Source: a virus
Direction: 5' to 3' (one strand)
Length of the DNA stretch: 24,316 nucleotides
Virus record (IMG/VR): IMGVR_UViG_3300042691_052185
Span: 1 to 24,316 of that record
Every line of letters starts with the position of its first letter. Position 1 is the first letter of the stretch. The notes below the pieces were generated by a model. It made no database searches and was not told the origin of the DNA. It saw nothing but the letters and a program-made list of their open reading frames with translations. Positions 2,824 to 24,316 of the stretch are shown here, one piece after another. The position numbers and the translations under genes were made by a program.

Positions 2824-2856
2824 AAAAAACTAGCTGATGTTTGGCTAGTTTTTTTA
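2824..2856 (+). terminator. Intrinsic terminator after the acidic protein gene
   Basis: The stem AAAAACTAGC (2825-2834) pairs with GCTAGTTTTT (2844-2853) around a 9-nt loop, and a run of T follows. Only the five inner pairs (CTAGC/GCTAG) contain G or C, so it is weaker than the other two terminators in the window. It separates the tRNA and acidic-protein unit from uvdE. Confidence 0.8.
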
Positions 2857-2885
2857 TTTCTATTCACAGCTGCATACAATACATC

Positions 2886-3827
2886 ATGATATCCAACATT
2901 CGATACGGTTTGTGTTGCATGCATCTTGGTCTTGCCGACAAAGGCTATAAGTTTGAAACCATGACGCGCAAGCGTTATTTTCAACTTGGCGAATCGGCTC
3001 ACTCTACCATAGTTGATCGTGCACTCAACAACATCAAAGTTACAGAAAAGATTGCGTGCGAGTGTATGCAACGCGGTTGGGTGTATCGTGTGAGCAGCGG
3101 TTTGATTCCGCTCGTTACGCTTCCCGAAGCCAAGTTCAATCTCGACACAATTATCGAAACTTCCAATCATCGTCCTATGTCGTTTGAAACCGCTTGTATG
3201 CGTGTGCGACAACTTGTTGACTGTGGTTTGCGTATCAGCAATCACCCTGATCAATTCAATGTTTTGGCTAGTGACAATCCTCAAGCCGTAGACAAGACGA
3301 TTCGTGAACTTGATATGGAAGCTCGCGTGATGAGCATGTTGGGCGCACGCAACAGTTACGAGTCGCCGATGAACATTCATATCAATTGCAGCAAGGGCAA
3401 CATTCAAGACATTGCGGATCGTTTTGCCGCAAACATCGAACGCTTGAGTCCCGCTGCACGTAGCAGGCTTGTTGTTGAGAACGAAGACAAAGGCGTTTGG
3501 ACAGTCGAAAACTTGTATAAATACATATATCTGCGTACGGGTACGCCCATCACGTTTGACTATTTGCATCACAAGTGCAATCCTGGCAGCCTCTACCTTC
3601 AAGATGCTTTCCAGATGGCTGCTTCCACTTGGAAAGGCTATCGTCCACTGTTTCACTACAGTGAAACTTTGCCGGGTCAACCCAATCCTCGTAAACATGC
3701 CGACTATTCCACAAATGTATTCAATGCTTATGGCATTGATATTGATGTTGACATGGAGTTCAAAATGAAGGACGCGGCGATCGATCGCCATATTAAATTA
3801 ACGGAGAGAATCAATGCCCTTGTATGA
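2886..3827 (+). CDS. uvsE: UV damage endonuclease (UvdE/UvsE family)
   Basis: A 313-residue TIM-barrel endonuclease of the UVDE family, which nicks DNA 5' of UV photoproducts and starts alternative excision repair. Family signatures occur in order: RYGLC (6-10), SNHPDQFNVL (118-127), NIHINCSKG (163-171), VENEDKG (197-203), TFDYLHHKCNPG (223-234), HYSE (257-260), HADYS (271-275) and DMEFKMKD (289-296). The His/Asp/Glu residues in these match the expected metal site. By my recollection the Thermus enzyme has a carbamylated lysine two residues before the HYS-type histidine; here that place is Leu255, which needs an alignment. Start: the ATG at 2886 gives the family N-terminus; a TTG at 2841 lies inside the terminator and is unlikely. 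No Shine-Dalgarno sequence precedes the ATG. The 3' end overlaps the FmdB-like gene by 14 nt. Confidence 0.92.
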   Translation: MISNIRYGLCCMHLGLADKGYKFETMTRKRYFQLGESAHSTIVDRALNNIKVTEKIACECMQRGWVYRVSSGLIPLVTLPEAKFNLDTIIETSNHRPMSFETACMRVRQLVDCGLRISNHPDQFNVLASDNPQAVDKTIRELDMEARVMSMLGARNSYESPMNIHINCSKGNIQDIADRFAANIERLSPAARSRLVVENEDKGVWTVENLYKYIYLRTGTPITFDYLHHKCNPGSLYLQDAFQMAASTWKGYRPLFHYSETLPGQPNPRKHADYSTNVFNAYGIDIDVDMEFKMKDAAIDRHIKLTERINALV

Positions 3828-6570: not shown

Positions 6571-6600
6571 AAAAAAGGGAGCCTTTCGGCTCCCTTTTTT
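6571..6600. terminator. Bidirectional terminator between gp32 and the tape measure gene
   Basis: The perfect stem AAAAAAGGGAGCC (6571-6583) pairs with GGCTCCCTTTTTT (6588-6600) around a TTTC loop. A and T tracts on both sides serve both strands. It lies exactly between convergent gp32 (+) and the tape-measure gene (-). Confidence 0.95.
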
Positions 6601-9092
6601 TATCTATATGGCATCGATTCTTTTTCAAACTCTCTTCGTTTAGGTGCGTTTGTAATTAGATTTTTTGTCGAGTTATCTACAGTTGTGTTGTTTATCATAT
6701 TGTTGTTTTTAGATTCTTTTTGCACATCATTTACTTTAAGTTGTTCATTTATAGATATAGACTCTATAGTTTTTGATTCGGTTGTTGATTTAGCCGATTC
6801 TGGTTTTGGTTTATTTTTTGATATAGACTTTAATTCTTCATCGGTAGCACGAAGACCAAATTCTTGTTCTAGTGTATAACCATATTTCTTTCGTAAAGCT
6901 CGTTCTTCTTCGTCTCGTTCGTTTGCTAAACTGTATCCGCTTTTTCCAGTAACTTGACTTTCGTGTAATCTTTCTGCGCGTTGACTAAGTGTCATGCCAC
7001 TTCTAAAATCAAAATCTTCGGGAAGAATTCTTTGTCTTTTGTATTTTAATTTTGATTCGGATACTTTTGATTCTCCAAATTCTTCTACAAAACTATAACC
7101 GAATTTTTTTCTTCTTTCTTTTTCTTCAAGATCTTTTTCGTGTGCTACACTGTAACCGCTTTTTCCTTCGGTTTGACTTTCGCGAAGTCTTTCTGCTCGT
7201 AAATCTCCCGTCATTAGTTTTGCAAAATCAGGATCTTCTGGAAGAATTCTTTGTCGCTTGTAGCTTGATTTATCGGAAGATGATTTTCCAGCTTTAGCTA
7301 TTTTACCTAAAACGCTCTTTATTTTACCAATTGGACTTGTGCTTTTTACAGGTTCAATTTGCTGGCTTGATTCTGATATTGGTTTTATTTCCGATTGTTT
7401 TTGGTCTGAAGGAGCACCAAATTGTTGTTCGAGTGTATAACCATACTGTTTTCGTAACGCTCGTTCTTCATTATCTTTTTCTGTTGCTAAACTATATCCA
7501 CTTTCTCCCATAATTTGACTTTCACGCAATCGTTCGGTTCGATCAGAAACCGACATACCATTTTTAAAATCAGGATCTTCTGGAAGAATTCTTTGTCGCT
7601 TGTATTGAAATTCTGATTTTGATTTTTGTGGTGTTTGTGATACTGATTTTTTAATTGGCGTTTCTGTTATTGTTTTTGCTAAATCCAATGAAGATTTATT
7701 TTCTTGATTTTCAGAAGATTTAATTTGTTTTGCTGATTCTTTTTCTTGATCTATCAATTCAGCATTAATTTGTTTAGTTTCTAATTTGATTTCTTTTTGT
7801 TTTTCCAATATGTCGTTGGTTGCTTCGTGTTCTTCATTTATTTTTTGAACATCTCTAGCTACTATCGCAGCATCCACAGCAAATGATGCAGCCGTTCCTA
7901 CTCCAGGAAGCGTACCTAAAGCTCCTGAAGCAACTTCCATACTAGCTCCCTTATAGTCACCTTCCGCTGCTCTAGCAGCAGCAAAACCAAGACCAAACAA
8001 TAATCCTAATAAAGGCGTTTTTTTCGCAAAAATTTTTAATGCTGCTTTTTCTGTAGCTTTTTCTGCAACTCGTTTTCCAACTTCCTGTCCAACCTCTGTT
8101 CCTATACTTTTTATGGATTTTTCGCTTATTTTTGCTGTGTCTTTTGCCAATGTTTCTGCAACTTTTGTTTCAGTTTTAACAGCAGCTTCAGCACTTCCAG
8201 CCGCAGCTTTTGCAACACCAGCACCTGTTGCAGCAACAGCGCCACCTTTAACTAATGGGTTTTTAATAACTTTTCTAATTGCAGGTAAAGCTTTTCTTGA
8301 AAGTATTACTCTACTTGCTCTACCTAATTTTCCTATGCGAGTGCGACCCAATATTCTAGATAAAGATGCACCTTTGACTCCAAGAAGACGACTCAATATT
8401 TTATATTGTAAATATTCTCTAGCAACACCACCAACAACACCTAAAATTCCTCCTTCGGATTCGGAACCTAAAGGTCCCATTTTATTTTCAGGTGCAAAAA
8501 CATCGGTTCTATAACTTACAGAAGATTTTGCAGCTTCTCGTTCGGCTTCTTGACGTGCAAGATCATCATCTCTACTTTTCATTATTTTGTTTGTATCCGA
8601 AACACTCGTTGATATTTTTTTTAATGTATTTGTTGATTCTACTTGATTTTTCAATACATCTTCGTTTATTTTTTGAATGTGTTTTAAAATTTCAAGATTT
8701 TGAAAGAATATACTAGAGATGCTGCTCGTTTCGCGAATACTAAATCCAGATTTTTCCTCTTCGCTTTTTTTATCTTTTTGTTTAAAAATTCCACTAATAC
8801 TATTTGTAAGTTTATTCATTCCAATATTCAAAACTTTAGCTATCACTGCATCTGATGTATTACCCTCGGCTGCAACAAAAAATTGTTTATTAGTATTTTT
8901 ATTTTTATTTAATAAATTTGTTTTGGATATTTCGTTCGATGCTGAGTTTTGAGATTGAATGTTGCTGTCGATAGAATCACTGTTCTTTTCAACACGCGAT
9001 GAAAGATTATTCAAATTTTCATTTGTTTGTCGAATTTCATTTTTTAAATCTTGTAAACTTTTATTTAACGAGTCGAGTGATTCTTGATCCAT
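6600..9092 (-). CDS. 29: Tape measure / baseplate hub protein, gp29-like
   Basis: An 830-residue protein at the place where T4-like phages carry gene 29, directly after gp26/gp51. The N-terminus is coiled-coil-like (SLDSLNKSLQDLKNEIRQTNENLNNLSSRVEKN split over residues 5-37). Residues about 270-410 are Ala/Gly-rich and include long hydrophobic stretches (for example TPLLGLLFGLGFAAARAAEG), typical of tape measure proteins that line the tail tube and enter the membrane. From about residue 497 onward the protein is hydrophilic and holds three 63-residue repeats. Sequence similarity to T4 gp29 itself is not evident by eye; the call rests on position, size and composition. The ATG at 9092 follows AGGA and starts 8 nt after the frameshift ORF stop. 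It is the last gene of the minus-strand tail operon. Confidence 0.82.
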   Translation of the reverse strand: MDQESLDSLNKSLQDLKNEIRQTNENLNNLSSRVEKNSDSIDSNIQSQNSASNEISKTNLLNKNKNTNKQFFVAAEGNTSDAVIAKVLNIGMNKLTNSISGIFKQKDKKSEEEKSGFSIRETSSISSIFFQNLEILKHIQKINEDVLKNQVESTNTLKKISTSVSDTNKIMKSRDDDLARQEAEREAAKSSVSYRTDVFAPENKMGPLGSESEGGILGVVGGVAREYLQYKILSRLLGVKGASLSRILGRTRIGKLGRASRVILSRKALPAIRKVIKNPLVKGGAVAATGAGVAKAAAGSAEAAVKTETKVAETLAKDTAKISEKSIKSIGTEVGQEVGKRVAEKATEKAALKIFAKKTPLLGLLFGLGFAAARAAEGDYKGASMEVASGALGTLPGVGTAASFAVDAAIVARDVQKINEEHEATNDILEKQKEIKLETKQINAELIDQEKESAKQIKSSENQENKSSLDLAKTITETPIKKSVSQTPQKSKSEFQYKRQRILPEDPDFKNGMSVSDRTERLRESQIMGESGYSLATEKDNEERALRKQYGYTLEQQFGAPSDQKQSEIKPISESSQQIEPVKSTSPIGKIKSVLGKIAKAGKSSSDKSSYKRQRILPEDPDFAKLMTGDLRAERLRESQTEGKSGYSVAHEKDLEEKERRKKFGYSFVEEFGESKVSESKLKYKRQRILPEDFDFRSGMTLSQRAERLHESQVTGKSGYSLANERDEEERALRKKYGYTLEQEFGLRATDEELKSISKNKPKPESAKSTTESKTIESISINEQLKVNDVQKESKNNNMINNTTVDNSTKNLITNAPKRREFEKESMPYR
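6855..7604 (-). repeat. Three 63-aa repeats in the C-terminal part of the tape measure
   Basis: Three 189-nt in-frame copies occupy 7604-7416, 7262-7074 and 7043-6855. Each begins YKRQRILPED, contains ERLxESQxxGxSGYS and KxxEERxxRKxYGY, and ends with FG. Copies 1 and 2 are separated by 51 residues, copies 2 and 3 by 10. They have diverged at the protein level but keep identical stretches at the DNA level (for example GGAAGAATTCTTTGTC). Confidence 0.93.
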
Positions 9093-9100
9093 ACAAATTC

Positions 9101-9280
9101 CTATTTCTGAGCATATCGTTTGTTTTCTTCATCAATATGCTGTTTTAATAAACTAAGGTAAATTTCTCGCTCCCAAGGAATCATATTTTCTAGTTCTTGT
9201 AATGAATATTTGTGATGCTGTATTAACTGAAAGTTTAATTTATAATATTGAAATAAACTTTCATCAATACAGCTTAACTG
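9101..9280 (-). CDS. 51: gp51-like frameshift extension of gp26 (-1 frame, no own start)
   Basis: An open frame of 59 codons, in the -1 frame relative to gp26, begins at the gp26 end and stops with TAG at 9103-9101, 8 nt before the tape-measure ATG. It has no ATG, GTG or TTG before the internal ATG in ENMIPWERE, so it cannot be started independently in full. Read through by -1 slippage at T TTT TTC (9286-9280), it gives a 291-residue gp26 fusion (232 + 59). The translation contains LEQ-type helical segments and the motif MIPWEREIYLSLLKQH, then a charged end DEENKRYAQK. Position (between gp26 and the tape measure) and product size argue for the T-domain of a tail assembly chaperone, functionally comparable to lambda gpT or P2 E', and the likely counterpart of T4 gp51 (inference). 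Confidence 0.82.
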   Translation of the reverse strand, partial: QLSCIDESLFQYYKLNFQLIQHHKYSLQELENMIPWEREIYLSLLKQHIDEENKRYAQK

Positions 9281-9286
9281 AAAAAA
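9217..9286 (-). promoter_or_regulatory. Programmed -1 ribosomal frameshift signal (slippery heptamer, spacer, hairpin)
   Basis: On the minus strand the heptamer T TTT TTC (9286-9280) is in the gp26 frame, two codons before its TAA. After a 6-nt spacer (AGTTAA) a hairpin starts: GCTGTATT (9273-9266) pairs perfectly with AATACAGC (9224-9217), and GAAAGTTTA (9262-9254) pairs perfectly with TAAACTTTC (9237-9229). The bases between the two stems (GAT opposite AGTT) can form G-U, A-U and U-G pairs with one bulge, so the stem may be nearly continuous. The loop is about 16 nt. Confidence 0.85.
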
Positions 9287-9975
9287 CTATAAAAATCATC
9301 TACTTTATAATCACCAACATGATTGCATTCTTTGCATTTATACTTTATCGAATGTGATAACGATGGTATCGTTTCAAAGAATTCTTCGATTTTTTTGTAT
9401 TGAACTTCCGTTAAGTTTTCAACAAAACCTTCGAGTTCTTGGTTCGTACAGTCTTTGGAATAATATATTTGATTTTGATCAAAAATATAATCTATGCAAT
9501 TAATTAAGATCTTGATATCAAGATCTTCGGGTTTTATATCTTTTGGCAGTGTCTGAACAGAAATTCCAGGATACTTTAATACCATTCCAACACTGTCGTT
9601 TATCATTATTTTGTTTTGATGATTTGGATTTTTATTTATTTTAATTTCATCAAAATTTATTTTAGAATGAACATAAGCTGCGCAGTTTGGACATTTAAAT
9701 TTAAAATCAGCAACTTCACCAATAGATTTGCTGCGTATTTTTAAAAATAAGTATTGTATTTCAAAAAGAGCAAGACGATCAACATCCAATTTTCCAAAAG
9801 TACAATTTGTGATTATTTGTTTTACAGCTAATATTGCAGCATCTTCATTGCTTGATTCGGATGCAGCCATCAATATCTTTTTTTCTTTTACCAAAAATGG
9901 TCGATAAGTTACTTTTCCTTCTATTGAAATCAATTGAACATCGTAAAGTGGTACGTCAATTTGTGGTAATGCCAT
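9274..9975 (-). CDS. 26: gp26-like baseplate hub / tail assembly chaperone, zero-frame product
   Basis: A 233-residue protein of the T4 gp26 type. The ATG at 9975 is chosen because AAAGGA lies 8 nt upstream; a TTG two codons earlier would be too close. Visible features are an N-terminal PLYDVQLISIEGKVTYRPFLVKEKKILMAASES region, typical of gp26-like proteins, and a helical AILAVKQII. A zinc-ribbon-like pair follows: CPNC (in FKFKCPNCAAYV) and, near the end, CKEC (in IKYKCKECNHVG). The product ends DDFYSFFS. In T4, gp26 and gp51 are needed for hub formation but are not found in the finished baseplate by my recollection, which fits a chaperone role. The last codons form a slippery site, so a minority product fused to the gp51-like frame is expected. 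Confidence 0.85.
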   Translation of the reverse strand: MALPQIDVPLYDVQLISIEGKVTYRPFLVKEKKILMAASESSNEDAAILAVKQIITNCTFGKLDVDRLALFEIQYLFLKIRSKSIGEVADFKFKCPNCAAYVHSKINFDEIKINKNPNHQNKIMINDSVGMVLKYPGISVQTLPKDIKPEDLDIKILINCIDYIFDQNQIYYSKDCTNQELEGFVENLTEVQYKKIEEFFETIPSLSHSIKYKCKECNHVGDYKVDDFYSFFS

Positions 9976-10014: not shown

Positions 10015-11322
10015 TTATCCTATACGAGAATTTGATGGTGAGAACGCAGCAAAATTAGAAGCATTCAAATCGCCTAATCCTCTTTCTATCAATAATTGTC
10101 TTGTTTTAAATGGATCGTTTGTTTTAGCCAATTGATACGCGCGATTTCCAAATTTAGTAAATGGATTTGCATTGTCTATTTTGGTTCCTGGGAAACTTTT
10201 TGGACCTTTTTTATAATCATTAGGTGTTGCACTTGGATCAGTTAAACCCATCAATTCTGGATTGTAAATTCCTATTTGTTGAGCCAATTCAAAATTTCTT
10301 CTGACATTTGGATCGTTTGGATTGGCTCGTGTAAAAAATTTATCTATCGCATTATTCAATTGTTTTGAAAATCTACTATTTTCAACATTAGAAGCATTAG
10401 CAAAACTCGTTTGTTGCAAATATTCAATAACAGGATCGGTCCATTTTAAATATTTAAATGCAACCGACAATCCAAGAATTGCTCCTTCACCAGTTGCTGA
10501 CACCACTTGTTCGGAAACTCTAATCGGATAAACATGATGATATTTCACATAATAGACTTGTTGTGAGACATTTGCTTCCATCAAATTTGTTGCAGCGTTT
10601 TCAAAACTAGCACCACCAGTGGAATCGCCAAAATCTGTTGGCAAATGTGCAACTATGATATTCCAAGGCAACGCATACGTATCGTACATAGCTACTTCAT
10701 GCGTTCCTGGATTGACTATTTTATGAACCCAACTTTCAAAATAGTGTCTTTCGAAAAAATCTGCGCCTGTCAAAAAATTTAAAACTAGATCACCCGATAC
10801 GTTTTCAGCATAAGCATGCGTTGTGAGTGGACCATTTCCCACTATATTTGATTCTTGCGTCATCAATGCTTTTGCTGGAAAACTTGCGTCTTGACAGTTT
10901 AGTGCCAATCTTTGTTTGGATTTGATATCTAAACCCATACCTATTGATGAAGCCATGGAACTTGAAGTAATTTCAAACGAAGTTACGTCAATTCCTGGAC
11001 CATGAATCAATACAATAAAACGATTGTTTCGAGCAAATCCTATGCTTCTCGCTTGTTCGTGAAATTTACCAACCAAACTGTTGGGATATCTGCTGTATAC
11101 TGTGGAATCGGTATTTGATACTGAATTTGAGGATACGTTCGATGGTAGATCTTTTTGGTCGGGTCCTTCGGGACTTGTGGTTACTTTTTGTCTAAATGTG
11201 ATGCGTCCAGTTTGTACATCTTTAGTTTCTTGAAAAACAACTTTACCATCAACCGTCGTTACGGTTCGTTCTACAAATTCATCGCGATACGTTGTTGTTA
11301 TTGGTTCACCTGGTTGAGGCAC
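10015..11322 (-). CDS. 54: gp54-like baseplate tail-tube initiator
   Basis: A 435-residue structural protein starting with GTG at 11322, which has AAAGGA about 8 nt upstream and lies 1 nt after the preceding stop. Residues about 80-310 have the tube-like fold signature of gp54: RNNRFIVLIHG near 98-108, an aromatic FFERHYFESWVHKIVNP segment, and a beta-hairpin YYVKYHHVYPIRVSEQVVSATGE followed by VAFKYLKW. The same fold as the tail tube protein gp19 is expected, since gp54 is the platform on which gp19 polymerises. T4 gp54 has 320 residues; here a polar N-terminal arm of about 80 residues and a C-terminal tail of about 125 residues (Asn/Pro-rich) are added. It could in principle be a divergent gp48, but gp48 is better matched at 12191. 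Confidence 0.78.
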   Translation of the reverse strand: MPQPGEPITTTYRDEFVERTVTTVDGKVVFQETKDVQTGRITFRQKVTTSPEGPDQKDLPSNVSSNSVSNTDSTVYSRYPNSLVGKFHEQARSIGFARNNRFIVLIHGPGIDVTSFEITSSSMASSIGMGLDIKSKQRLALNCQDASFPAKALMTQESNIVGNGPLTTHAYAENVSGDLVLNFLTGADFFERHYFESWVHKIVNPGTHEVAMYDTYALPWNIIVAHLPTDFGDSTGGASFENAATNLMEANVSQQVYYVKYHHVYPIRVSEQVVSATGEGAILGLSVAFKYLKWTDPVIEYLQQTSFANASNVENSRFSKQLNNAIDKFFTRANPNDPNVRRNFELAQQIGIYNPELMGLTDPSATPNDYKKGPKSFPGTKIDNANPFTKFGNRAYQLAKTNDPFKTRQLLIERGLGDLNASNFAAFSPSNSRIG

Positions 11323-11323
11323 T

Positions 11324-11686
11324 TTATTTTCCTTTTACGATATCCAAAGATCTCAAAATGTTCATCCAATCATCGTTTTTTATAAGTTTATAGGAATGCA
11401 ATTGCTTGGTTTTTTGTGTTTCAACGTGTTTTTTTATCGAGTTCCATAAACCCAAGGTCAACAAATCCTCAATTTTTTTGATTTTTTTATTTAAAATAGA
11501 CTCCAACAATCGATTCAAAACACTTGTTGGTAGTTTTTTTAGATTTACTATCGCAATTTGATCGTTTTCTGCGCCAATGCACCACATCAAACGATTTTGT
11601 TCGGACTTTGATTGCAAAAAAACATTAAAAAGAGGAATTTCAATGTTTTTTTGTTCGGAAACGCTAGATGTTTTTGAGATTTTCAT
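11324..11686 (-). CDS. Hypothetical protein in tail operon (120 aa)
   Basis: A real-looking gene between gp4 and gp54 on the minus strand; it overlaps the end of gp4 by 23 nt and ends 1 nt before the gp54 GTG. The product starts MKISKTSSVSEQKN and continues as an alternating hydrophobic and helical protein: IEIPLFNVFLQSKSEQNRLMW split around 17-37, then IVNLKKLPTSVLNRLLESIL, with a lysine-rich second half ending in DDWMNILRSLDIVKGK. There is one cysteine and no membrane segment. The ribosome site is weak (AAGACG). T4 has no recognisable counterpart here. Location suggests a tail or head-completion accessory protein; the function is unknown. A TATAAATA motif lies 91 nt upstream inside gp4. Confidence 0.78.
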   Translation of the reverse strand: MKISKTSSVSEQKNIEIPLFNVFLQSKSEQNRLMWCIGAENDQIAIVNLKKLPTSVLNRLLESILNKKIKKIEDLLTLGLWNSIKKHVETQKTKQLHSYKLIKNDDWMNILRSLDIVKGK

Positions 11687-12125
11687 CGTCTTGTTTGAAA
11701 ATATGCTTTTCGGTGAGTACTAAAAAATCCCAATTTCTACTTTTGCAATAAGATTCTGCAGCTTTCCATTTATGATTATTTATAACCCATGCTTTTACTT
11801 CCGATAAATAGCTTTTAGTCTGACGTTTGGGTTGTTTTGGTTGTTGAGTTTGTTTAAAAGGTTTGATTTCAACCATTTTGCATTTTATTTCACCGTTCTT
11901 CTCTTGTATTTTGATCCAAAAATCAACAAAATAACGGTGATAACGTTTGTCGATAGGGCTGAAATATTTTATTGCTATTTCTTCCGATGACCATTCGAGT
12001 ATATTTTCAGTGGTATCACAAAATTTCATAAATTTTCTTTCCCACAAACTACGATAAAATATACGCGTGGGATCGCCACGGTACTTTTTGGGGTTAACAG
12101 GAACATATCTTCCGCTGTAAGCTAT
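11664..12125 (-). CDS. 4: gp4-like head completion protein, apparent ATA start
   Basis: The frame encodes a gp4 (gp50/65) head completion protein, which works on filled heads before tail joining. Signature segments are SLWERKFMKFCD, ILEWSSEEIAIKYFSPID, RYHRYFVDFWIK, MVEIKPFKQT, WKAAESYCKSRNWDFLVLTEKH. The YFVDF...VEIKP spacing recalls the core of small PD-(D/E)XK-like nucleases. Canonical starts allow only TTG at 12047 or ATG at 12029, but the conserved N-terminal arm is encoded upstream in the same frame: AYSGRYVPVNPKKYRGDP, then TRIFYRS. That arm begins directly after an ATA codon at 12125-12123, with AAAGGG 6-7 nt before it. With ATA as start the product is 153 aa, against 150 for T4 gp4. 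An in-frame TAA lies farther upstream with no ATG, GTG or TTG between. Confidence 0.85.
   Translation of the reverse strand: MAYSGRYVPVNPKKYRGDPTRIFYRSLWERKFMKFCDTTENILEWSSEEIAIKYFSPIDKRYHRYFVDFWIKIQEKNGEIKCKMVEIKPFKQTQQPKQPKRQTKSYLSEVKAWVINNHKWKAAESYCKSRNWDFLVLTEKHIFKQDDENLKNI
11777..11784 (-). promoter_or_regulatory. Possible internal late promoter (TATAAATA) in gp4
   Basis: A perfect TATAAATA on the minus strand, inside gp4 (codons for VINN), 91 nt before the start of the 120-aa gene. It could give extra transcripts of the downstream tail genes. Chance occurrence in AT-rich coding DNA cannot be excluded; another perfect copy inside uvdE is probably meaningless. Confidence 0.35.
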
Positions 12126-22568: not shown

Positions 22569-23162
22569 ATGATACCATTCAAAAAATACTTGGGCGAACC
22601 GCATGTTCCCGATTGGATCGATTCGGATGCAACCGTTTTATCGTTCACGTGTCTTGAAAAATTACTTTTTGAACGTTCAAACATTGAATATTGTATTGTA
22701 GTTCCTAGAAATTTAGGTGGACGCCGCGAAAACGAAACAATTCGTGAATATTTTCAAGAACAACGAACAAGTTTGTATCCAATTGCTGTTGGAAACAAGC
22801 GCAATCACGGTAGAGTATATGCGCTTGTCAAAAAACCTCACACACGTTCGCAAGATTTTCGAGAAATGGTGAGCGATGCATTTTACAAACTCGAAAATTT
22901 TGATGCTATTTACAGCAACGGTTCATCAATAAAAACTTTAACAAGCGAAGGTGTAAAAGTTCTCGGTGAAGAAGCTAGCATCAGCAAATTTCAAGAAATA
23001 GTTTCTGCTTTTTGCGGCAAAAAAACATCATTTTATGGTGTTGAAATTGCAATAAACGAAGAAATAAAATATCATTTCGGTAAAAACAATCTCGTATCGT
23101 ATCCATTGACCGAATACGATTTGAAATATTCAAAAAATTGGAATAATTTCTTGAATGGCTGA
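22569..23162 (+). CDS. Hypothetical protein, fibre-operon (197 aa)
   Basis: A clean gene with AGGAG 8 nt before the ATG. The product is an alpha/beta-looking soluble protein: [40 protein letters not shown], a basic [37 protein letters not shown], then [20 protein letters not shown] and a C-terminal helix-strand region ending WNNFLNG. There are three cysteines with no zinc pattern and no membrane segment. I do not recognise the family. It overlaps the collagen-like gene by 8 nt (ATGGCTGA), so the two are coupled, which suggests a fibre chaperone or a component of the same appendage (inference only). Confidence 0.8.
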
Positions 23163-24316
23163 CGCAATCAACGACTCGTTTCGGTGTCGTCTTCGCAAAC
23201 CGCTTGCAAATTACAGCGGCGATTGTTGGTTTCAAATTGTAGATCAAAAAGAATGTGTTTTTCCGACCGAGTATCGTCTCGATGAAGGCGATGCGTGTTT
23301 GTACACCATCGACAAATATGGCGAATCCACTGCTTTCTATGGTTCACCCGAAAAAATTGTTGAATACTTTTCTCTGCCTTCTATAAAAACTGAAATCAAA
23401 GAAAGTGTTTCGATTGTTCAAGGTCCCATAGGTCCACAAGGACCACAAGGCGAACGTGGACCTGCAGGTGCACAAGGAATTCAAGGTAAAATTGGCCCTG
23501 TTGGTCCGATCGGTCCGCGCGGCGATCAAGGCGTTGCTGGTTCACAAGGACCACAAGGACCAAAAGGTGATCGTGGCGAACGTGGCGAACGTGGTGAAGT
23601 GGGTCCTCAAGGCGAACGCGGCGAACAAGGACTAAAAGGTGAACAGGGTCCTGCGGGTCCACAAGGTGAAGTTGGTCCTCAAGGCGAACGTGGTGAACAG
23701 GGTCCTGCGGGTCCACAAGGTGAAGTTGGTCCTCAAGGCGAACGTGGTGAAGCGGGTCCTGCGGGTCCACAAGGTGAAGTTGGTCCTCAAGGCGAACGTG
23801 GTGAAGTGGGTCCTCAAGGCGAACGCGGCGAACAAGGACTAAAAGGCGAACAAGGTCCTATTGGTCCACAAGGTTTACAAGGAACACAAGGTCCTCAAGG
23901 CGAACGCGGTGAAGTGGGTCCTCAAGGTGTCGCTGGAGAAAGTGGGCTTTTGGATGTCGCATATCCGCTAGTTTACGACAAACCCAAAAAGTTTTTAAAA
24001 ATTGATACGCGTGCGTTTGAAAAATATTTCAAAGATCGTGGTTCGTTGGTATCAAGTGGCGGTGGTGTTGGCGAAGCGTTTAAATTTGTCGGTGTAACTG
24101 GAGCATTCAATCCAACCGGACAAAGTGGGTTGACTGCAGTTGGTTTTGCAGCCGAAACGCTCACACTCGAAGCAGGCTACAACGTAACGTTACGCACCAA
24201 CGCCAGCACCAACACCATAAAAATAGAGTCCAACGATTTCAACTATGGAGCCACACCACCCGCAACTGGCATCACTAGCGGCAATCGTTGGATGGACAGC
24301 GATACGGGTATCGAGT
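23155..24316 (+). CDS. Collagen-like fibre protein (3' end outside window)
   Basis: The frame runs uninterrupted from an ATG at 23155, inside the end of the preceding gene, to the right edge, giving at least 387 residues. Residues 1-89 form a compact domain ([20 protein letters not shown], three Cys in the first 53 residues). Residues 90-263 are 58 uninterrupted Gly-X-Y triplets rich in GPQ, GER, GEV and GEQ, expected to form a collagen triple helix. The segment after it ([20 protein letters not shown], then [18 protein letters not shown]) returns to fibre-type beta sequence, ending at a [10 protein letters not shown] motif near the edge. Gly is coded mainly by GGT and GGC. Such trimeric stalks are known in phage tail fibres and capsid appendages. 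The start has no strong ribosome site and is probably reached by coupling. Confidence 0.9.
23422..23943 (+). repeat. Collagen Gly-X-Y tract with nested tandem DNA repeats
   Basis: 58 triplets code for Gly-X-Y without a break. Within them are three 54-nt tandem units at 23638-23691, 23692-23745 and 23746-23799: the first two are identical and the third differs by 2 nt (CAG to GCG). They are flanked by two identical 45-nt blocks at 23593-23637 and 23800-23844. The pattern shows recent unit duplication. Confidence 0.95.

Follow-up and report, generated by a model that had tools for sequence, protein, structure and literature searches.

A probable -1 ribosomal frameshift joining gp26 to a gp51-type extension ahead of the tape measure gene in T4-like phages

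In phage P2, the E/E' pair arises by a -1 extension of a short open reading frame (ORF) lying ahead of the tape measure gene, the same arrangement as in lambda G/GT, where the slippery heptamer is G GGA AAG. For T4-like phages, the tail assembly chaperone (TAC) genes were reportedly identified by Vladimirov, Gautam and Davidson in 2022. Two later papers citing that work mention TACs made from a short gene plus a long gene in some T4-like phages (PMC10885494) and poly-T slippery sequences in the TAC-N genes of T4-like phages (PMC12846349), so the core idea pursued here, a TAC frameshift in T4-like phages, has probably already been published. A 2016 review called G-T frameshifting widely conserved and T4 the exception; it also describes lambda gpG and gpGT as binders of the tape measure protein, with the tube protein bound by the T part (PMC5009743). 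The essential T4 protein gp51 was described in a 2010 review as having no known function (PMC3004832), and Sullivan et al. (2010) recorded a cyanophage gp51 of about 20% of the usual length, and gp51 as missing in Aeh1, with no frameshift invoked (PMC3037559).

The DNA analysed here (the window) is a whole record, of 24,316 bases, from a marine T4-like virus, in which gp26, the presumptive short TAC form, is encoded on the minus strand (9274..9975, 233 aa, TAA at 9276-9274). Its product matches the PF12322 profile (Pfam T4_baseplate) at 6e-57, with 193 bits against a curated cut-off of 24.5, and phrog_150 at 6e-60. The gene is placed between those of the tail tube and the tape measure: immediately upstream lies a tail-tube-like protein of 435 aa starting from GTG (10015..11322, minus strand; phrog_45 tail tube, 1e-16), and downstream a probable tape measure protein of 830 aa (6600..9092, minus strand), which is named from its size and its synteny with annotated relatives and had no direct family match in Pfam and PHROG profile searches. 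A gp4-like head closure gene (11664..12047, minus strand; phrog_218 head closure, 1e-44) anchors this synteny to T4-like relatives. The C-terminal region of the probable tape measure protein (6855-7604, minus strand) carries a unit of ~63 residues in three copies, at residues 497, 611 and 684, which reads YKRQRILPEDPDF...GKSGYSLA.E.D.EERALRKKYGYTLEQ.FG; the repeat count might tune tail length, or the repeats might be cargo or a cleaved region. Elsewhere, on the plus strand, the window holds three tRNA genes, Glu(ttc), Pro(tgg) and Gly(tcc) (2046-2556, where the listed ORFs are spurious), a homologue of the UV-damage endonuclease UvdE (2841-3827; PF03851, 1e-37), here in a T4-like phage, and a long collagen-like Gly-X-Y protein (23155-24315; PF01391, 8e-30), which is encoded by near-identical DNA repeats and extends beyond the window end.

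gp26 was modelled with AlphaFold (mean pLDDT 87.9), and the model was compared with solved structures and with viral models. Sequence search of the solved structures returned no relative, and Foldseek of the model against the PDB returned nothing at E<=0.001. The matches to the TAC fold come solely from a second look with VIA-align, where the best solved structures were the HK97 gp13 tail assembly chaperone (2ob9, Z 7.6, 83 of 107 residues, rmsd 3.7) and YqbN (3klu, Z 6.7), with the next row at Z 3.2; the matching region is formed by the ~85 N-terminal residues of the model. Among viral models, T4-type hub chaperones were the best matches. The predicted fold thus gives moderate support, at Z below 8, to the shared gp26 domain having a TAC fold.

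The 3' end of gp26 on the minus strand reads GAT TTT TAT AGT TTT TTC AGT TAA, and the heptamer T TTT TTC (9286-9280, minus strand), with TTT in the P site and TTC in the A site of the gp26 frame, is indeed found near the TAA, where the sequence-only reading had placed a slippery site. One codon ahead of it, and abutting it, a TAG (9287..9289, minus strand) closes the -1 frame upstream. Past the heptamer come the six-nucleotide spacer AGTTAA and a stem-loop (9273-9217, minus strand) with 10 bp, a 1-nt bulge, another 10 bp and a 16-nt loop, of which the 8-bp and 9-bp stems picked out earlier are the cores; its calculated energy is -22 kcal/mol and its z about -6 to -7, none of 200 shuffles being equally stable. 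The -1 frame runs from the heptamer for 59 codons (9280-9104) to a TAG at 9103-9101 (whole feature 9101..9280, minus strand), which ends 8 nt before the tape measure ATG at 9092. Taken by itself, this extension hits phrog_634, named 'baseplate hub assembly catalyst' (gp51), at 9e-25; it also matches 40 columns at the C-terminal end of phrog_150, at 2e-7, from which it follows that some phrog_150 members have the extension in one frame.

Our preferred reading, to which we give a probability of roughly 0.93, is that a programmed -1 ribosomal frameshift yields gp26 (233 aa) together with a minority gp26-51 fusion of 291 aa. The evidence for it is strong, though wholly comparative. Most ribosomes would terminate gp26 at its TAA. 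A minority would pause at the hairpin 6 nt downstream and shift back by one base at the U UUU UUC heptamer; their product would then consist of 232 aa of gp26 followed by the 59-aa C-terminal extension, in agreement with the fusion length first proposed. The short and long forms would make up a tail assembly chaperone pair like lambda gpG and gpGT, in which, by analogy, coating of the tape measure protein would fall to the common domain and recruitment of tube subunits probably to the extension. That slippage takes place, at what rate, and what both forms do are all inferred here. T-even phages would obtain both of these products from two genes, 26 (the short form) and 51 (a gp26-like domain plus the extension, in one frame).

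The window has 20 copies of TTTTTTC where 26 are expected in such AT-rich DNA, so the presence of the heptamer alone proves nothing, and it is its positional conservation that counts. Relatives were gathered in two collections (one by gp26 query, one by extension query) and supplemented with annotated phages, which makes for a sample biased to those detectable by these queries and composed of non-independent sequences. In all 211 loci having both parts, the extension is in the -1 frame relative to gp26. The sequence-only reading had predicted that relatives would keep the heptamer, and T TTT TTN stands at the equivalent place in 191 of the 192 distinct junctions, which span 159 gp26 clusters at 90% identity and 67 at 60%; the motif is TTTTTTC in 152 of them, TTTTTTT in 32, TTTTTTA in 5, TTTTTTG in 1 and T TTA AAC in 1. 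The T TTA AAC count refers to Rhizobium phage RHph_I1_18 (L108, ~2960-2998), where the motif continues from TTTTTTA as a second, overlapping heptamer; its run, TTTTTTAAAC, lies ~24 nt ahead of the gp26 stop and does not adjoin it, yet here too the extension can be aligned starting at the slip site. We do not regard the sole junction that lacks the heptamer (L217) as a counterexample, the gp26 3' end being lost there.

Such a fixed position exceeds chance, common as the heptamer is, and T TTT TT occurs in frame at 0.1% of the other codons of the same gp26 genes. We also rejected the protein sequence (Phe-Phe) as the sole cause of the conservation. The codon preceding TTT varies (AGT, AAT, GAT, TCT, GCT, GGT, CAT), and with it the residue (Ser, Asn, Asp, Ala, Gly, His), yet its third base is T throughout; likewise, the first Phe codon at the slip site is always TTT, while TTC starts 101 of the 207 other Phe-Phe pairs of gp26, so that both are fixed despite free alternatives.

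For RNA structure, 70-nt windows starting 3 nt past the heptamer were scanned with z<-2 as the cut-off, which was passed in 42% of loci as compared with 5-8% in three upstream windows, 14% in the next window downstream and 1% in the one beyond. Two main hairpins occur among relatives at equal spacing, namely the long stem of the window type and a 10-bp stem in the P-SSM2 group. The long stem, common to the window and three relatives (L001, L002, L003), pairs in 96% of cells, and three of its pairs are changed on both sides. The 10-bp stem was followed in 38 distinct sequences, which were selected by their left-arm ATG and reduced manually, not by pairing; 84% of its cells pair, against 25-43% when the arms are slid, and four pairs show two-sided changes, one position being U-A in 15 sequences, A-U in 8 and G-C in 3. 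Across a larger set of 73 loci, this position reads A-T in 22, T-A in 21, G-T in 6, G-C in 5 and something else in 19, for which reason we consider the covariation of the stem real, yet imperfect. The compensatory changes that had been predicted for the stems are thus present in both groups.

These data bear on the alternative that survives best, although we consider it improbable: the heptamer would slip, and the hairpin, in place of stimulating, would serve for processing, act as a terminator-like element or be incidental. It draws on the facts that a simple strong hairpin is absent from many relatives, with fewer than half of the loci at z<-2, and that the hairpin varies between lineages. 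Against this, structure is enriched at the distance from the heptamer at which a stimulator is expected, and the stems carry compensatory changes. A transcription terminator in particular was rejected, as no T run follows the hairpin, which in the window lies inside the -1 reading frame. A frameshift with the stem-loop as its probable stimulator remains the reading that we prefer.

A second alternative, which we hold to be very unlikely, takes the downstream ORF as a separate small gene 51, with its own start or with termination-reinitiation at the gp26 stop. Records of many cyanophages, vibriophages and Sinorhizobium phages do carry a separate short gp51; in numerous relatives among the cyanophages, an ATG is present in the -1 frame close to the gp26 stop, so that reinitiation may occur in these, and in P-SSM2-type cyanophages the ATG annotated as the 'gp51' start is found 2 nt past that stop. 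This last ATG sits within the hairpin arm, however, and reinitiation there would yield an extension lacking the domain found in T4 gp51. The extension is protein-coding (third-position entropy of 1.40 versus 0.84 and 0.58 at the other codon positions). In the window, its first ATG, GTG or TTG comes at codon index 32 of 59, and there is no start upstream of the slip or within the first five extension codons in 94 of 191 loci, or within the first ten in 62 of 191. A Shine-Dalgarno-like tetramer accompanies 1 of the 124 early starts, so the ribosome site that would have spoken for an independent gene is almost never present at such starts. A conserved coding -1 extension with no start of its own is thus found in the window and in relatives. 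A separate gene would, moreover, leave the invariant heptamer unexplained, and T4 gp51 is a full gp26-like protein plus the extension.

A further point for such a separate gene comes from Vibrio phage D510 (L116, 3200-3400), in which a gp26 homologue is followed by the kept -1 ORF with no recognisable T-run heptamer and with a TAATG overlap of stop and start, which hints at reinitiation; no recognised tape measure gene lies next to this -1 ORF. Loss of the heptamer with retention of the ORF, which had been named as counting against the frameshift, is seen in this phage, and we accept it as a genuine, distant exception.

Transcriptional slippage on the T run, in place of ribosomal slippage on U UUU UUC, is just as improbable, for although 6-7 T are present at every site, the run is just six T followed by C in 152 of 191 loci, which is short for polymerase slippage, the phase relative to codons (X XXY YYZ) never varies, and only the ribosomal route would call for downstream RNA structure at ribosomal spacing and for compensatory changes in it.

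T4 itself does have genes 26 and 51 as separate genes, as had been stated, and the two are divergently oriented. T4 gp26 also matches PF12322, and so does T4 gp51 (3.9e-52), which continues into an in-frame segment homologous to the extension (phrog_634, 1e-23), the alignment joining its two domains where slippage would join gp26 and the extension. Since T4 gp51 is a second gp26-like domain plus the same extension, T4 would use two genes where this phage probably frameshifts, and T4 gp51 is suggested to be the long tail assembly chaperone. Describing the 59-codon frame as gp51-like was consequently right in that the C-terminal part of the long form is homologous to the T4 gp51 C-terminus, by alignment and by the phrog_634 match, and wrong in that T4 gp51 corresponds to the whole fusion. 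The proposal that gp26/gp51 is the T4-side equivalent of G/GT gains from T4 gp51 being a gp26 paralogue with the extension, as well as from the resemblance of the gp26 N-terminal domain to solved TACs.

Junctions of the frameshift type are found in Kyanoviridae, a Methylophilales phage, vibriophages nt-1 and D486, Aeromonas phages phiAS5 and P19, Sinorhizobium phage phiM7 and two Rhizobium phages. T4, MY02, Acj9 and Aes508 have a gp51 with its parts fused in frame, with gene 25 occupying the -1 frame; the slippery run is lost in gp26 of this type, the old slip site reading TTC TTT, TTT ATT or unrelated codons. Vibrio phage pv27 (L109, 1805-3147) has two PF12322 genes, the second with an in-frame gp51-type extension, and its pair is in tandem, unlike the divergent 26 and 51 of T4. 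In the tree, T-even gp26 and gp51 form sister groups (93/81), which would fit a single duplication within the T-even lineage; the two pv27 copies join on long branches and their joining may be false. With its midpoint root, long branches and unsettled bootstrap values, the tree can do no more than hint at the direction of change. We lean, by a little, towards a -1 frameshift that was ancestral in the T4 superfamily and was replaced by duplication at the T-even base (26 and 51) and separately in pv27, with a lineage-specific stimulatory RNA, an invariant heptamer and covarying stems.

If our preferred reading is correct, T4-superfamily phages, the abundant marine ones included, would conform to the general pattern in which long-tailed phages produce two forms of the chaperone at a set ratio. 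The short cyanophage gp51 of Sullivan et al. (2010) would be explained as a frameshift extension of gp26 and not as a gene of its own. GenBank cyanophage records such as L023 (ACG-2014e) and L111 (DSL-LC03) either give the extension as a small gp51 gene of its own or leave it without annotation in the stretch from gp26 to the following gene. Hundreds of public genomes would then misannotate or miss the long-form protein. What may be new in our analysis is the breadth of the survey, the covarying hairpins, the pv27 and D510 variants, and the identification of the short cyanophage gp51 with the frameshift extension.

Among described systems, an excerpt of the report on Pseudomonas phage Adele and the Vandenendeviridae presents a -1 frameshift at a T run near the 3' end of TAC-N, ahead of the tape measure gene, with an extension that had once been annotated as a hypothetical gene (PMC12846349). 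That case differs in belonging to another phage family and in having the motif GTTTTT, with no hairpin reported in the excerpt (PMC12846349). With lambda G/GT, the locus shares a short ORF ahead of the tape measure gene, a slippery heptamer at its 3' end and a minor long -1 form, predicted in our case (PMC5009743). It differs from lambda and P2, with whose chaperones gp26 has no sequence family detectably in common, in its U UUU UUC heptamer, its strong hairpin and its setting among T4-like contractile tail genes. T4 genes 26 and 51 differ in being two divergent genes with no frameshift, yet they share PF12322 with our locus, T4 gp26 resembling the short form and T4 gp51 the gp26-like domain joined to the extension.
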